Shown here: piece by piece, positions 12,433 through 43,673 of the stretch
Position numbering within the stretch: position 1 is the stretch's first letter
Layout: each line of letters begins with the position of its first letter
Source of the DNA: Desulfobacterales bacterium
GTDB lineage: Bacteria; Desulfobacterota; Desulfobacteria; Desulfobacterales; JAIPEE01
Reading direction: 5' to 3'
NCBI GenBank assembly: GCA_021737275.1
Contig: JAIPEE010000022.1
Coordinates: forward strand, 1-64,000
DNA: 64,000 bases
Made by a program: the position numbers and the translations under genes
Notes under the pieces: generated by a model
Told to the model about the DNA's origin: nothing
The model's database searches: none
The model's input: the letters and a program-made list of their open reading frames with translations, nothing else

Positions 12433-12475
12433 TTGACTACATAACAACGTTATGTTCACATAACCTAATTATGCA
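12433..12475 (+). promoter_or_regulatory. TetR operator cluster and promoter of the dehydrogenase operon
   Basis: A -35-like TTGACT (12433-12438) is followed by alternating 7-bp arms: ACATAAC (12439-12445), GTTATGT (12449-12455) and ACATAAC (12458-12464). These create two overlapping palindromes; the second, GTTATGTTCACATAAC, is a 16-bp inverted repeat. It lies 38 bases before the TetR start, as expected for an autoregulatory operator. A 14/16 match lies at 15461-15476 before the second dehydrogenase. Confidence 0.65.
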
Positions 12476-12502
12476 ACATGCATTAGCCACACTGGAGATA
12501 CC

Positions 12503-13147
12503 ATGACCACTTTCTTTGCCAAGCAGAAAGAGACGGAGAGACAGCATCGGATCGACCATATTCTTGAAGCTGCAAAAACCGTTTTTATGGAAAAAGGTTA
12601 TAAAAATGCGACACTCCGGAAGATTGCGCTCAAGGCCCAGATCACTACCGGAGCCATATATGTCTATTTTTCCGGCAAAGATGAGCTCTATGCTGAAGTC
12701 TGCAAGCAGATCTTTCACCTGATGAACAGTTATCTGGATAAAGCCTCAAAAGTCGATGGCGACATAAAACAGCGAATCATGTCCATGGCTATGGCTATCC
12801 TTCGGTTTGAGAAAGACCATCACGATGCTGCAGATATGCTGGCTGCCAACTTTTCAATACTGAATCTGCCGGATAAACTTTCTGAGGAACTGTCTGAACT
12901 TGGCAGTCAGACAACATACTATATTACCCGGATTATAATTGACGGAAAAAAAGAAGGCTTTTTCCCACCGGACAAAGATGATGTCCGTTTAGCCCTTTCA
13001 CTATGGTCAAGCCTTGAAGGTTTTCTGTATATGAATGATTATGGCATTTTTGATAAGTACGACATCGACTTTGAAGAACTTGTTAAAGATCATATCAACT
13101 ATTTTATCTGCGGAATTCAGCAGTACAAAGAGGAGGAAAACGCATGA
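12503..13147 (+). CDS. TetR/AcrR-family regulator of the saccharopine-dehydrogenase module
   Basis: A 214-aa protein. The N-terminal HTH (about residues 12-58) is typical: ATLRKIALKAQITTGAIYVY with the recognition helix and F(S)GKDELY turn. The C-terminal all-helical ligand domain is variable, as usual in the family. RBS CTGGAGA. The stop overlaps the start of the next gene by 4 bases (ATGA), so the regulator and the dehydrogenase are translationally coupled. The palindromes at 12439-12464 are the likely operator. The inducer is probably a substrate or product of the adjacent enzymes, which is inference. Confidence 0.93.
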   Translation: MTTFFAKQKETERQHRIDHILEAAKTVFMEKGYKNATLRKIALKAQITTGAIYVYFSGKDELYAEVCKQIFHLMNSYLDKASKVDGDIKQRIMSMAMAILRFEKDHHDAADMLAANFSILNLPDKLSEELSELGSQTTYYITRIIIDGKKEGFFPPDKDDVRLALSLWSSLEGFLYMNDYGIFDKYDIDFEELVKDHINYFICGIQQYKEEENA

Positions 13148-14376
13148 AAAAGATACTCGTCGTCGGCGCCGGTGCACAGGGTGGACCATGTGCATCCATT
13201 CTTTCAAAACAGGAAGAAATTTCAGAAATTCGTCTGGGTGACATCAATCTTGATTTTGCCAAAAAAATCGCAGCAAAAATTGGCGGAGACAAAATTAAAG
13301 CGATAAAACTTGATGCGGGTAACAAAGATGAGATTATTAAAGCAGCAGAAGGCGTGGATGCCGTTATCAACCTGACCCTGATTGATTTCAATGATAATAT
13401 TCTTCAGACAGCTATCGCTGTTGGCGCCCATTACATTGACACGGCCAATGATTATGCCTATCTGAAAGAGATGGCTGCCGGATCAACCACCCTGCCATAT
13501 CAGGAAGCGTTTAAAGGTACCGGCAAAACTGCACTTATGGGCTGCGGTGCATCACCGGGCGTCACTAATGTAATGGCCCGTTATGCCTGCGATCAGATGG
13601 ATGAAGTAGAAAAAATTTATGTCCGGATCGGCAGTGCCGGACTTGGCAAATCTGAAGAAATTGTCAGTGCCTGGAACCCGGGCTGGTCTCCTGAAATTGC
13701 GCTACTTGATTTTGCAGAAAAACCGATGATTTTTGAGAATGGAAAGTATAAAACTGTTCCGATTTTCGGACGACCTGAAAATTATCAATTTTCGGAACCA
13801 TTTGGTAAAAGTCTTCTGGCATCTCACTCTCATGAAGAGCCATACACGATGCCTTACTATATCGGTAAGGGATTGAAAGAGGTTGATTTCAAATATCCGG
13901 TAGATTATATGGCCGGTACATTTGTAAAGATGGGCTTTGCCGATGACCGTGAGATCGAAATTAAAGGTGTAAAAGTGTGTCCCAGGGATGTTCTGATGAA
14001 ACTGGTACACAGACCGGCCAATGAATTTCTGGATGAAACAGAAGAGTCAATCCATGAATCAGCAGGCTATGCATGGATTATGGAAATTGAAGTTAGCGGT
14101 CTGAGAAATGGCAAAAAAGTAAAACACATTATTGAACAAAAATTTGTTATGGATAAAGAGGCCAGGCAGTATTTATTTAAGACGTTTGGTTCAAGCCATA
14201 TTGGTGTATCGCTGCCTGCAGTGGTCGGCACGAAAATGTGTCTGGCTGGTGATACGGAAAGCGGCGTCATTTCATCTGAGTGTCTTAGCCCGGATAAATT
14301 TTTTAAGATAATGGCCGATATGGGTTCTCCGGTTAAGCTTACGGAAAAAATTGAAATCATAACCAGTTTCACATAA
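13144..14376 (+). CDS. saccharopine dehydrogenase-like oxidoreductase, copy 1
   Basis: A 410-aa protein with an N-terminal Rossmann fold (ILVVGAGAQGGPCASIL) and the family continuation AVINLTLIDFNDNILQTAI and GAHYIDTAN. True saccharopine or carboxynorspermidine dehydrogenases of this family couple reductive condensation or cleavage of an amino acid with a keto or aldehyde acid using NAD(P)H; the substrate here is not known. It is translationally coupled to the TetR gene upstream. A close paralogue of full length lies at 15492. Both keep the central block SHSHEEPYT. No lysine-pathway neighbour is present, so a role in amine or diamino-acid metabolism is inference. Confidence 0.9.
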   Translation: MKKILVVGAGAQGGPCASILSKQEEISEIRLGDINLDFAKKIAAKIGGDKIKAIKLDAGNKDEIIKAAEGVDAVINLTLIDFNDNILQTAIAVGAHYIDTANDYAYLKEMAAGSTTLPYQEAFKGTGKTALMGCGASPGVTNVMARYACDQMDEVEKIYVRIGSAGLGKSEEIVSAWNPGWSPEIALLDFAEKPMIFENGKYKTVPIFGRPENYQFSEPFGKSLLASHSHEEPYTMPYYIGKGLKEVDFKYPVDYMAGTFVKMGFADDREIEIKGVKVCPRDVLMKLVHRPANEFLDETEESIHESAGYAWIMEIEVSGLRNGKKVKHIIEQKFVMDKEARQYLFKTFGSSHIGVSLPAVVGTKMCLAGDTESGVISSECLSPDKFFKIMADMGSPVKLTEKIEIITSFT

Positions 14377-14455
14377 TTATATTTTTACTACTTTTCTCCC
14401 TCATCTTCCTTCAGAAGGAGAAAGAAAATTTTTAATACTTTTTAAAAATTATAAT

Positions 14456-15295
14456 ATGGAAGCAGTAATATTTGCATTACTTTCCTGTATTTGCTGGGCC
14501 AGTGCGGGATTCATCGGCGGGTTTAAAAACAAAACCGTTCACATTCTGTACATACTGGCTGCATCTTATATTACAGGATTTGTAATTATATCAATCGTAG
14601 TCACTGTCAGGAGCCGGGGATTTCCAATGGACTCGCATCTGCTCTATGGTGCTTTTGCCGGTATGATTGCGCCCATTGCAGTGGGCTGTCTGCTTCGTGG
14701 TCTATCTGTCGGCAAAATGGGGGTGATCTCCGCCATTGCTGCAACCGGTGTTTTAATTCCGTTAATATATGACCTTGTTCTGGGCAATTATCCAAATATA
14801 TACCAGTTTGCCGGTATGATTATGGCCATTATCGGCGTTATGATCATCTCGCTTGAAAATGCAGGCCACCAAAATGGCAAACGAATTGTGGCCGGTGTCG
14901 GGCTGGCGCTCTGTTCAGCATTTTTGTTCGGCTTTTTTAATTTATTCATTGATGCCGCCAGTAATATTGATCCGTTCTGGACCATTTTCTGCCTTCGTGT
15001 CAGTTCACTGGTATGCATCAGTTTTGCACTTGCAGTAAAACGCCCTAAACTGGAGTTTACCCGGCGGGACCTGCCGGTGATGCTTTCCATGGGCCTTTTT
15101 GAAACGGGCGGTTCCCTGTTTTTTGCACTGGCTTCAACAAAGGGTCTGGTCAGTGTTATTTCGGTGATTATTGCCATTAATCCTGCTGTTGTGGCCCTGC
15201 TTGCATTTTTTATTTTAAAACAACAACTAAGCAGAAAACAGATTACAGGCATTTCGGTTGCTCTGGCAGGCGTTTCTATAATTGTTTATGGTTGA
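14456..15295 (+). CDS. EamA/DMT-superfamily transporter
   Basis: A 279-aa membrane protein with about ten hydrophobic helices and the internal duplication typical of EamA exporters (helix starts MEAVIFALLSCICWASAGF and RIVAGVGLALCSAFLFGFF). The family exports amino acids and other small metabolites. It sits between the two saccharopine-dehydrogenase-like genes, in the same direction, about 80 bases after copy 1, so export or uptake of the pathway substrate is likely. No good RBS directly precedes the ATG, although AAGGAG occurs at 14415; translation may depend on read-through from upstream. Confidence 0.9.
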   Translation: MEAVIFALLSCICWASAGFIGGFKNKTVHILYILAASYITGFVIISIVVTVRSRGFPMDSHLLYGAFAGMIAPIAVGCLLRGLSVGKMGVISAIAATGVLIPLIYDLVLGNYPNIYQFAGMIMAIIGVMIISLENAGHQNGKRIVAGVGLALCSAFLFGFFNLFIDAASNIDPFWTIFCLRVSSLVCISFALAVKRPKLEFTRRDLPVMLSMGLFETGGSLFFALASTKGLVSVISVIIAINPAVVALLAFFILKQQLSRKQITGISVALAGVSIIVYG

Positions 15296-15460
15296 GCTGA
15301 TGATAAACTTGATATACAAACAGCATAAAATTATCATTTCCCCTTCTGATATTGACGATATTCTTCTGGAACTTGCAGTCTGGTAGACCATTTAGATTTT
15401 CATCTGTAATAATTATCTTAAAAAAATTTACCCGGCAGAACATGAGCAACAGTTTCTATT

Positions 15461-15478
15461 GTTGTGTTCACATAAAAC
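15461..15478 (+). promoter_or_regulatory. second copy of the TetR operator, before dehydrogenase copy 2
   Basis: GTTGTGTTCACATAAAAC matches GTTATGTTCACATAAC (12449-12464) at 14 of 16 positions and keeps the palindromic core. It sits 14 bases before the ATG at 15492, overlapping the leader, where a repressor would block transcription. Confidence 0.55.
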
Positions 15479-15491
15479 AAGGAGTTTTATA

Positions 15492-16727
15492 ATGAAAAAA
15501 ATATTAGTTGTGGGCGCCGGTGCCCAGGGTGGCCCCTGTGCCTCAATTCTGGCAAGACAGGAAGAGATTTCTGAAATTCGCCTCGCTGACATCAACCTTG
15601 AATTTACTCAGAAAGTGGCAGCAAAAATCGGAGGCAATAAAGTCAAACCGATAAAACTTGATGCCGGTAACAAAGAAGCGCTGATTGAAGCGGCCAGAGG
15701 CGTTGATGCTGTTATAAATCTGACATTGATTGATTTTAATGACAATGTCATCCAGGCAGCTATTGCTGCCGGGGCCCACTACATTGATACTGCAAATGCC
15801 TATGAATATCTGGATGAAATGGCCAAAGGTGTATCCACCTTAAAATATCACGAAGAGTTTAACAATATCGGTAAAACCGCGCTCATGGGCTGTGGTGGAA
15901 CACCGGGCCTTACCAATGTGCTGGCCAGGTATGTGTGTGATCAGCTTGATGAAGTCGATAAGCTGTACATCCGTATTGGCGGAACCGGACTTGGAGAACC
16001 GGATGATATTGTCAGTGCATGGGATCCGGGCTGGTCTCCTGAAATTGCATTACTTGATTTTGCAAAAAAACCGATGATCTTTGAAGATGGGCAGTATAAA
16101 AAAGTTCCTGTCTTTAGTCGCCCTGAAGATTATCAATTTGACGAACCGGTCGGGCAGAATCTGCTGGCATCTCACTCCCATGAAGAGCCATATACCCTTC
16201 CATATTTTATCGGCAAAGGCATAAAGGAGGTCGATTTTAAATATCCGGTGGATACAATGGCCGGCACATTTGTAAAAATGGGTTTTGCCGATGATGAAGA
16301 GATTGAGGTCAAGGGTGTAAAGATTTGCCCGAGAGATGTATTAATGAAACTGGTTCACAGACCGGCCAATGGTTTTCTTGATGAATCGGAAGAAGAGATC
16401 AACTCATGGGAAGGTTTCTCATGGGTCATGGAAATAGAGGTTACCGGTTCACGCAACAACAAAAAGGTCAGACACGTCATTTCCCAAAAATTCCATATGG
16501 ATAAAGCGGCCAGACTAAACCTTTTTAATACATTTGGCTCAAGCCATATTGATGTTGCGCTGCCGGCTGTCGCCGGCGCAAAAATGTGCCTTGCTGATAA
16601 TACCGATACCGGTGTTATCTCTTCAGAATGTCTTGATCCCGACTCCTTTTATAATATTATGACAGGCATGGGGTTTCCGGTTGAGTTCGAAGAAAGGGTT
16701 GAAAGCATTACCCGTTATGGAAAATAA
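15492..16727 (+). CDS. saccharopine dehydrogenase-like oxidoreductase, copy 2
   Basis: A 411-aa paralogue of the enzyme at 13144. Whole stretches are identical or nearly so, including ILVVGAGAQGGPCASIL, LLASHSHEEPYT and GTFVKMGFADD, with most differences conservative. I place the start at 15492, where AAGGAG stands 8 bases upstream; an earlier in-frame start at 15459 would add 11 residues across the operator. It heads a probable second unit with the aminotransferase at 16791 (63-base gap). The recent duplication with both copies intact suggests related but distinct substrates or a heteromer; this is inference. Confidence 0.9.
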   Translation: MKKILVVGAGAQGGPCASILARQEEISEIRLADINLEFTQKVAAKIGGNKVKPIKLDAGNKEALIEAARGVDAVINLTLIDFNDNVIQAAIAAGAHYIDTANAYEYLDEMAKGVSTLKYHEEFNNIGKTALMGCGGTPGLTNVLARYVCDQLDEVDKLYIRIGGTGLGEPDDIVSAWDPGWSPEIALLDFAKKPMIFEDGQYKKVPVFSRPEDYQFDEPVGQNLLASHSHEEPYTLPYFIGKGIKEVDFKYPVDTMAGTFVKMGFADDEEIEVKGVKICPRDVLMKLVHRPANGFLDESEEEINSWEGFSWVMEIEVTGSRNNKKVRHVISQKFHMDKAARLNLFNTFGSSHIDVALPAVAGAKMCLADNTDTGVISSECLDPDSFYNIMTGMGFPVEFEERVESITRYGK

Positions 16728-16790: not shown

Positions 16791-18125
16791 ATGGAAAACA
16801 AAAAAGAAGCCATATTAAAAGAGCTGGCAAAACGTACACCCAAATCCGGTAAATACTGGGAAGAATCCAAAGATTTGATTCCAGGCGGCCTCATGAGCGG
16901 TGCACGGTCAATGGCGCCTTATCCCGTTTATGTAGAACGTGCAAAAGGTGCCTACCTATGGGATATTGACGGAAATAAATATATTGATTGTGTCTGTTCA
17001 TATGGTGTTCATCTGCTGGGCCATGGCCCTGAATCTGTTGTAGAAGCAATAGGTAAGCAGTATGACCTGGGCTTAAGCTATGGCACACCGCACACACGGG
17101 AGATAGATTTCAGCAAACGATTTGTGGCGTGTGTACCGTGTGCTGAAATCGGCATGGTTTGTAATACAGGAACCGAAGCCACTTTACTCGCCTGGCGCCT
17201 TATGAGAGCAGCAACAGGAAAAAATAAAATAGCCAAATTTGAAGGCTGTTATCACGGCTGGCATGATTATGCCCAGTGGAGCGTAGGAATTAATCCGGAT
17301 AAAATGGGACCGGCAGATCGGCCCAACATCAATCCGGGAGCCTCAGGGATTCCTGATAAAATAAAAGAAACCATGCTTATGCTCCCCTTTAACGACAGTG
17401 CATTTGATTTAATTGAAGAACATGCTGATGAGCTGGCAGGTGTGGCAATTGAGCCGGTTCTAGGCGGCGGGATGCTGCCCGTTGATAAATCCTTTCTTGA
17501 AAAATTAAGAAAAGTGACTAAAAAACTTGGTATTTTACTCCACTTTGATGAAGTCATTACCGGATTCAGGCTGGCCCTGGGCGGATACCAGGAGATCACC
17601 GGAATTCTTCCGGATCTGGCCACTTATGGCAAAATTGTTGGCGGCGGACTGCCAATTGGCGCCATTGCCTGTTCCAAAGCCCTGGTGAAAGTAGCCCAGG
17701 AAACTGATAACGGTTGGGCTGCTGCAGGAACATTCAGCGGTAATCCCCTGACCCTGTCAACCGGTGCAGCAACATTAAAATATCTCCAGGAGAACACTCA
17801 TATTTATGAAGACATGATGAAGAAAGGTGAGTTTCTCAGAAACGGATTTAATGATTATGTCAAATCAAAAGGTTATCCGTTCTGCATGACCGGCCTCGGT
17901 TCCATGTTCCAGATTCATGCACAGGCTGAACTGCCACTTGTTCCCAGGGATACGCTGTATCAGGATGAAGATGCTCTTGAAAATCTTCAGCTTCAATTCC
18001 GCCTGAATAATATCCTGCTGCCATGGATGCATCTGGCTTTCTTTGGTGCAGCGCATACTGAGGCAGATCTTGGAGAAATGCTGGAAGGATTCAAGGCTTC
18101 AGTGGATGGTACAATGGAGATGTAA
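16791..18125 (+). CDS. PLP-dependent class III aminotransferase, glutamate-1-semialdehyde aminomutase-like
   Basis: A 444-aa fold-type I PLP enzyme. Visible landmarks: GTEATLLAWRLMRAATGK (phosphate and cofactor region), CYHGWHD, the Asp of the PLP pyridine contact in HFDEVITGFR, and the Schiff-base Lys in ATYGKIVGGGLPIGA. The pattern is closest to the HemL/GSA aminomutase branch, but the context (two saccharopine-dehydrogenase-like genes, EamA and MATE exporters, no heme genes) suggests a different amino acid or amine substrate. RBS AAAAGGAG. It lies 63 bases after dehydrogenase copy 2 and is probably in its operon. Confidence 0.93.
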   Translation: MENKKEAILKELAKRTPKSGKYWEESKDLIPGGLMSGARSMAPYPVYVERAKGAYLWDIDGNKYIDCVCSYGVHLLGHGPESVVEAIGKQYDLGLSYGTPHTREIDFSKRFVACVPCAEIGMVCNTGTEATLLAWRLMRAATGKNKIAKFEGCYHGWHDYAQWSVGINPDKMGPADRPNINPGASGIPDKIKETMLMLPFNDSAFDLIEEHADELAGVAIEPVLGGGMLPVDKSFLEKLRKVTKKLGILLHFDEVITGFRLALGGYQEITGILPDLATYGKIVGGGLPIGAIACSKALVKVAQETDNGWAAAGTFSGNPLTLSTGAATLKYLQENTHIYEDMMKKGEFLRNGFNDYVKSKGYPFCMTGLGSMFQIHAQAELPLVPRDTLYQDEDALENLQLQFRLNNILLPWMHLAFFGAAHTEADLGEMLEGFKASVDGTMEM

Positions 18126-18255: not shown

Positions 18256-19683
18256 ATGAATTGGTTTGTTAACAGATGGCAGGGTCCGGGCGGATATCGT
18301 GAAGTCCTGAGAATTGCATTTCCGCTTGTTTTGAGTACCGGTCTTACCGCCATACAGTATGTGGTGGACCGAATTTTCCTTGCCCGATATTCAGCTGAAG
18401 CTATTGCGGCGGCACTACCGGCCGGTCTTCTGAACTGGGCCGTGATGAGCCTTTTTTATGGCATGGCCCAGTATGTCAATACATTTACTGCCCAATATTA
18501 TGGTGCTGACCGAATGCACCGGATCGGCCCGGCCCTCTGGCAGGGCATCTATATCGGGGTTTTTGGCGGACTTTTCATGCTGCTGCTGATTCCGTTTTCG
18601 CCATTTATATACAATCTGATCGGACATGATCCTTTAATTCGAACCTTTGAAACTGAATATTTCCAGATTCTCTGTATGGGTGGTATGCCGGCCATGGTTT
18701 CAGTTGCCTTTTCAGGTTTTTACACAGGCCGGGGAAATATCTGGCCGGTACTGGGTGTAAGTACGCTGATGACGGCTGCCAATGTTATTCTGGACTACAC
18801 TATGGTTTTCGGCAACTGGGGCTTCCCGGAAATGGGTATACACGGTGCCGGCTATGCCACCGCTATTGCTGCGCTTATCTCATGTGCAACGTACTCATTC
18901 ATGACATTTTCTCCTGGAAACAACCATCGCTGGAAAACATTGTCCGGATGGCGGCCCGACCGGAAACTTTTTTTCAGAATGATCAAGTATGGCTTTCCAT
19001 ACGGCGTTCAGATGTTTATGGATCTTCTTGGTTTTACAGTTTTTGTGCTGCTTGTAGGACGCCTGGGAATTGTTGATCTGGCAGCAACCAACATCGCTTT
19101 TAATATTAATACACTGGCATTTGAGCCCATGCTGGGCGCCGGAATGGCGGCATCCGTTCTGGTAGGACAATATCTTGGAAGCGATCAGCCGGAACTTGCT
19201 CAGCGGTCCGCATATTCAACATTTCATATATGCCTTCTTTATATGTCAATCGTATCACTGAGTTATGTGCTGGTTCCGGATCTTTATATTTCTCTTTATG
19301 CATCAGAGCGAAATGCAGAAAATTTTAACCGGATGCGTGATCTTGTTATCGTATTACTCCGTTTTGTCGCTGTGTACTCCTTGTTTGACGCTATTTGTAT
19401 TATTGGCGGATCCGTTCTTAACGGTGCCGGAGATACCCGGTTTGTTATGAAAACAAATCTTCTATCGTCCATGTTGATATTGGTAATTCCTACATATGTA
19501 GCCATTGTTTTGTTGGGATACGGATTGATGACATCCTGGGTTCTGGTTACCTGTTACATGATTATTATTTCAATCATATTCTCCCTGCGTTTTTTAACCG
19601 GCAAGTGGAAAGATATGCGGGTAATCGAACGGCAACCGCCAATTACAATTATTGACAACGATATCGAACCTTTAAGCACATAG
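18256..19683 (+). CDS. MATE-family efflux transporter
   Basis: A 475-aa integral membrane protein with about twelve TM helices in two homologous halves. Each half begins with the MATE-type signature (REVLRIAFPLVLSTGLTAIQ and KLFFRMIKYGFPYGVQMFMD), and the loop GSVLNGAGDTRFVMK is characteristic. MATE pumps exchange Na+ or H+ for cationic metabolites and drugs. It is 130 bases after the aminotransferase and the last gene of the module, which suggests export of a pathway product or toxic amine. No strong RBS precedes the ATG. Confidence 0.93.
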   Translation: MNWFVNRWQGPGGYREVLRIAFPLVLSTGLTAIQYVVDRIFLARYSAEAIAAALPAGLLNWAVMSLFYGMAQYVNTFTAQYYGADRMHRIGPALWQGIYIGVFGGLFMLLLIPFSPFIYNLIGHDPLIRTFETEYFQILCMGGMPAMVSVAFSGFYTGRGNIWPVLGVSTLMTAANVILDYTMVFGNWGFPEMGIHGAGYATAIAALISCATYSFMTFSPGNNHRWKTLSGWRPDRKLFFRMIKYGFPYGVQMFMDLLGFTVFVLLVGRLGIVDLAATNIAFNINTLAFEPMLGAGMAASVLVGQYLGSDQPELAQRSAYSTFHICLLYMSIVSLSYVLVPDLYISLYASERNAENFNRMRDLVIVLLRFVAVYSLFDAICIIGGSVLNGAGDTRFVMKTNLLSSMLILVIPTYVAIVLLGYGLMTSWVLVTCYMIIISIIFSLRFLTGKWKDMRVIERQPPITIIDNDIEPLST

Positions 19684-43575: not shown

Positions 43576-43673
43576 CAAGCCGTTGAACAAATAACACTGT
43601 TATTTGGTCAAATTTTGTGGTACAAAACTTCAAATTTAGTTTTATCTATCGGAGTTCGTTGATGTAAACAGTA

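Follow-up and report, generated by a model that had tools for sequence, protein, structure and literature searches.

A predicted TetR operator region in the tetR promoter of a saccharopine-dehydrogenase locus of a Desulfobacterales bacterium

As judged from its sequence, the promoter of the tetR gene in the window is very probably a TetR operator region, in another register than the 16-mer that the initial annotation had taken for the operator. The window is the whole stretch of DNA that was analysed, i.e. positions 1 to 64,000 of contig JAIPEE010000022.1 (Desulfobacterales bacterium, assembly GCA_021737275.1; genome of 4.26 Mb in 104 contigs). A palindromic predicted operator, O1, overlaps tetR's own promoter, lying within the 17-bp spacer, and is likewise placed in relatives. 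A shared operator unit at the tetR and sdh2 promoters is not supported by the sequences.

Organization of the locus and of the tetR promoter

The features of this locus are on the forward strand. The tetR gene (12503-13147; 214 aa; Pfam TetR_N, 4.2e-15) encodes a protein with the TetR_N helix-turn-helix at its N-terminus (55.7 bits for a Pfam cut-off of 24), and it attains no subfamily cut-off in NCBIfam. Its end is overlapped by 4 bp by the start of sdh1 (13144-14376; 410 aa; Pfam PF03435 and PF16653), a member of the saccharopine-dehydrogenase family, followed by genes for an EamA transporter (14456-15295; 279 aa; Pfam EamA, 1.6e-25), a second saccharopine dehydrogenase, sdh2 (15492-16727; 411 aa; Pfam; 73% identical to sdh1), a class-III aminotransferase (16791-18125) resembling glutamate-1-semialdehyde aminomutase, under the cut-off of that family, and a MATE-family transporter (18256-19683; Pfam MatE, 4.4e-40). 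Both saccharopine-dehydrogenase domains are present in sdh1 and in sdh2, and the likeness of these proteins to carboxynorspermidine synthase (62 and 66 bits, respectively) is far under the cut-off of 800. Saccharopine-dehydrogenase-like genes are strongly expanded in this genome, where they occur at 24 places, several of them adjoining tetR, EamA or class-III aminotransferase genes. Elsewhere in the window, the sequence ATTATGTTCACCTGAT at 67-82 is also present at C11:67, C19:66, C31:186, C60:65, C94:66, C101:65 and other places; this recurrence near contig ends suggests a repeated element with assembly-breaking copies, among them the one where the contig of the window begins.

The tetR promoter starts with the -35-like hexamer TTGACT (12433-12438), of which TTGAC is equally placed in 14 of 23 promoters of the TetR subfamily. 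It is directly followed by O1, the predicted TetR operator ACATAAC-AAC-GTTATGT (12439-12455), a palindrome with perfect arms whose core and position are conserved in relatives; when the genome was searched with ACATAACNNNGTTATGT at 0 mismatches, O1 was the sole match. In relatives, -10 matches peak sharply at a spacing of 17 bp (at least 5 of 6 letters in 9 of 14 promoters), and therefore O1 is exactly the spacer between -35 and -10 of the tetR promoter. The -10 position at this spacing, TCACAT (12456-12461), is poor here (3 of 6 letters), being among the weakest of the scored promoters, while the same position is the best -10 in relatives. Across it lies O2, the predicted second TetR operator ACATAAC-CTA-ATTATGC (12458-12474; 12 of 14 arm letters), a direct repeat of O1 that starts 19 bp after it, with TC between the two. 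A 21-bp matrix built from 11 other operators gave O1 a score of only 7.6, the 16th within the window, the outer letters of O1 being C/G, and the matrix was dropped as proof of O1.

Repeat and palindrome searches place the tetR 16-mer, GTTATGTTCACATAAC (12449-12464), at the junction of these two sites: it joins the right half of O1 to the left half of O2. Any two palindromes placed head to tail appear palindromic around their junction. The conserved unit is the inward AAC-N3-GTT, and the 16-mer is an outward-facing junction between two of them; where a promoter has a single clear core, as in C29, G104 and G127, there is no junction. The proposal of a TetR operator at the tetR promoter is upheld in the sense that operator-like DNA is kept by related TetR genes, the 16-mer itself being set aside as the operator.

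The two 16-mers and the region upstream of sdh2

The 16-mers at tetR and at sdh2 (GTTGTGTTCACATAAA, 15461-15476) are alike at 14 of 16 positions, as had been described, and differ at positions 4 and 16. That the palindromic core is kept in both, as was said, is only partly correct: the tetR 16-mer has 7 of 8 symmetric pairs and the sdh2 16-mer 5 of 8, each of the two letter differences breaking a symmetric pair. The half-site words GTTRTGT and ACATAAM are retained between them, and 11 consecutive letters are identical. When the genome was scanned with RTTRTGTTCACATAAY, a pattern that had itself been loosened towards the sdh2 site, matches with at most one mismatch were found only at these two sites. 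Read from the same scan, the matches with at most two mismatches to the exact tetR 16-mer, besides the tetR site, are the sdh2 site, C43:85602, C52:73701 and C59:13229, the last three comprising one intergenic site and two within open frames. With the 16-mer fixed beforehand, shuffling the sdh2 5' region gave a match of at least 14 of 16 in 11 of 20000 cases; with a free choice of 16-mer across the tetR and sdh2 regions, 130 of 2000 shuffled pairs contained one. Given these figures, the match is mildly surprising and suggestive at best.

No AAC-N3-GTT palindrome is present within 350 bp before sdh2, and a repeat search of 15290-15500 found no tandem repeat like that of tetR. The sdh2 16-mer consists of two half-site-like words that point outward, 2 bp apart, unlike O1. 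Retention of the 16-mer in relatives, which the initial annotation had made its own test, was not borne out: a single match with three mismatches (G465a) was found in 23 other TetR-side promoters, and none at up to three mismatches in 24 other saccharopine-dehydrogenase promoters. Because it has no core, is not well matched in the other promoters scanned and has its half-sites outward, the sdh2 16-mer is in our view no operator of this TetR and may instead represent a chance match, a remnant or a part of the sdh2 leader. The joining of the tetR and sdh2 units into one regulon via the 16-mer is not supported, given the missing operator core in the sdh2 region, the poor recurrence of the 16-mer and the free-choice shuffles.

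Just downstream, a perfect 7-bp hairpin, ATAAAAC-AAGGA-GTTTTAT (15472-15490), encloses the ribosome-binding site of sdh2 and extends over the final 5 letters of the 16-mer. Between eamA and sdh2 (15296-15491) no terminator-like site was found, and promoter-like sites are no commoner than in shuffles, so transcription from the tetR promoter may run through into sdh2. The sdh2 and aminotransferase genes may be co-expressed in this way.

Related TetR genes and other sites in the genome

Across 389 genomes of the order, the four closest TetRs are those of G276, G104, G127 and G013, and all four have palindromes of the AAC-N3-GTT type near tetR; in G013 the two best copies are 3' of tetR, ahead of the gene that follows. 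When 395 genomes of the phylum were searched with a profile, 12 more close TetR members were added, and TTGAC followed by the same core is found upstream of most of them. A strict symmetry scan of 30 phylum-search loci gave sites only at four of them, L187, L188, L190 and L192, of which the first two were known before; its protein pattern missed loci, and for this reason upstream regions were read directly and a looser promoter score was used, composed of TTGAC, AAC-N3-GTT and flank symmetry. A score of at least 7/9 is reached by 14 of 23 subfamily TetR promoters, versus 2 of 43 controls, which are more distant TetRs, and 0.52% of 2300 shuffles. Both the scoring and the cut that delimits the subfamily (about 159 bits to profile A1) were chosen with the upstream regions already in view, and the 43 control loci include at least one gene (G060:C52) counted twice. 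Among the phylum members alone, 11 of 12 attain this score. Near the cut, G578 (158.1 bits) was placed in the controls and G470:C162 (158.7 bits) in neither set; their upstream regions show no exact AAC-N3-GTT core after TTGAC.

A second core with at least 5 of 6 letters occurs in the 14 scoring promoters at +18 in six, at +19 in one, which is the window (AACCTAATT, 5 of 6 letters), and at +36 in two; the remaining offsets between 10 and 44 have none. The nine subfamily TetRs whose own upstream sequence falls short of the threshold comprise those of C18, C29 and C86, with the operator elsewhere in the module, those of G276 and G013, with sites outside the scored position, G598b, with a score of 6, and C6 and both TetR copies of C68, for which no operator was found. 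A covariation between the recognition-helix type (T or P) and the half-site (ATAAC or TAAAC) fitted eight TetRs and was rejected when new members broke it, namely G480 (STGAIY) with AAAAC and G408 (STGAIY) with TGAAC. Loci related by a helix-turn-helix match, which covered only 40-59 residues of other TetRs, mostly from Lachnospiraceae, were set aside; otherwise unused, they lay inside a 774-kb scan.

Related TetRs adjoin class-III aminotransferases in G480 and G445, and in G465, G598a, G525, G715 and G497 the TetR is next to two conserved genes that, judged by their lengths, may encode an efflux pump. At L225, L227 and L228, the TetR promoters carry TAGAGC-N3-GCTCTA-like variants at the same spacer position, beside conserved two-gene runs that are efflux-like by size. 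No relative of the whole tetR-sdh-eamA-sdh-aminotransferase locus was found in the samples of the order, class or phylum, in which this genome is the sole representative of its family.

In the genome itself, window included, 24 saccharopine-dehydrogenase-like matches and 13 TetR matches (E <= 0.001) were considered. Recurrence of the operator at saccharopine-dehydrogenase units, also claimed initially, is seen at other such modules and not at sdh2, which has no AAC-N3-GTT core. Exact copies of WWWAACAACGTTWWW are found only at C18:26250, C29:12518 and C86:46153, all at TetR/saccharopine-dehydrogenase modules: ahead of an amine oxidase-cupin-tetR-sdh run, between tetR and sdh, and ahead of an sdh with tetR downstream, respectively. 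Two near copies (C86:38677 and 38707) are ahead of another sdh, and on C44 a palindrome is 326 bp ahead of its sdh; an exact AAC-N3-GTT palindrome lies within 350 bp for 4 of the genome's 24 sdh genes in total. Both C18 and the window have this palindrome at the head of the unit. The pattern TTGACN{3,8}AACNNNGTT has 16 matches in the genome, four of which are the tetR promoter of the window and the saccharopine-dehydrogenase promoters at C29, C86:38670 and C86:46146; most of the matches are noise, as the reversed-pattern control gave 27. Upstream of an amidase-like gene, L245 (G000:C71:7722) carries TTGACAAAATATAACAACGTT and, 18 bp further along, a second, weaker core; it is a possible further target. 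In the window, a symmetric AAATAACACTGTTATTT followed by GGTCAA lies in an intergenic region at 43589-43605 of the forward strand, and no neighbouring gene was seen to run in the matching direction.

Proposed regulation and relation to known systems

The reading that we consider likely is that TetR is an autorepressor acting at O1 and O2, that the tetR 16-mer is their junction and that this TetR has no proper operator in the sdh2 16-mer. TetR would probably repress its own gene by binding of a dimer to O1, between the -35 TTGACT and the -10 position, while a second dimer could bind O2, 19 bp downstream, across the -10 and the likely start region; occupancy would block RNA polymerase. A ligand, at a guess one of the amines or amino acids on which these enzymes act, would release TetR and switch on tetR-sdh1-eamA, and transcription may continue into sdh2-aminotransferase. 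On this view, the sdh2 16-mer would be a chance match, an unrelated element or a decayed remnant.

That TetR instead recognizes one 16-bp palindrome shared by tetR and sdh2, forming one regulon with two operators, would account for the 14/16 match, for the two best genome matches to the loosened pattern and for the low frequency of such a match in the fixed-16-mer shuffles. We consider it unlikely, since sdh2 has no AAC-N3-GTT core and only five symmetric pairs, one-core promoters have no junction, no well-matched 16-mer was seen in the other scanned TetR-side or saccharopine-dehydrogenase promoters, and a free choice of 16-mer yields such a match far more readily. The conserved half-site words and the run of 11 identical letters could also reflect a weak or decayed site with one outward half-site pair, occupied only through cooperative binding, such as by a DNA loop to O1/O2 at a distance of 3 kb; the outward orientation of these half-sites relative to O1, their 2-bp distance and the lack of a tandem copy in 15290-15500 make this improbable. 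An equally poor prospect is a role of the 16-mer in the sdh2 mRNA leader or as a site for some other regulator: its overlap with the hairpin around the ribosome-binding site would fit, but conserved copies of the 16-mer are missing from other saccharopine-dehydrogenase leaders.

A broader reading, which we hold only tentatively, is that of a phylum-wide TetR subfamily with O1 as promoter spacer, copies at an 18-bp period (up to three) and graded repression, together with a cross-regulation network of paralogous TetRs in this genome. Near-identical operators may connect the amine/amino-acid modules on C61, C18, C29 and two on C86, and possibly the amidase promoter at C71:7722.

The autorepressor reading recalls the tetA/tetR system, with operators between the divergent tetA and tetR. 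A TetR-family repressor with two operators in its own control region is reportedly the subject of Meier et al. 1988, cited in PMC4150764. The likeness lies in a TetR-family repressor with two operators, here predicted, in its own control region; in contrast, here there is a single promoter, O1 fills the -35/-10 spacer and the cores are 18-19 bp apart. According to PMC4150764, two dimers of QacR or of CprB, both TetR regulators, bind cooperatively to one extended operator, and in either case the two dimers share one short site (22 bp for CprB). Two dimers are predicted here as well; however, two complete palindromes stand side by side instead of one short shared site, and therefore two separate dimers are expected. 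The Zur sites of Desulfovibrio (ATGCAACNNNGTTGCAT), described in PMC545781 ahead of zinc uptake genes, are 17-bp palindromes with AAC-N3-GTT, like O1, but belong to another regulator family and have other outer letters (GC next to the core for Zur). A literature search for AACNNNGTT with TetR found the motif only as that of Zur, in PMC545781. The search gave no report of a TetR regulon with saccharopine dehydrogenase and EamA, and none relevant on a TetR operator with saccharopine dehydrogenase.

The register of the operator matters for the choice of test DNA, which is corrected here: the 16-mer alone consists of two outward half-sites, and an EMSA with it could fail for the wrong reason. The rule that emerges, i.e. 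TTGAC, a 17-bp palindrome around AAC-N3-GTT, a -10 and the next copy at 18 bp, is transferable and can be used to predict what a broad TetR subfamily controls, also where its members adjoin aminotransferases or efflux-like gene pairs.
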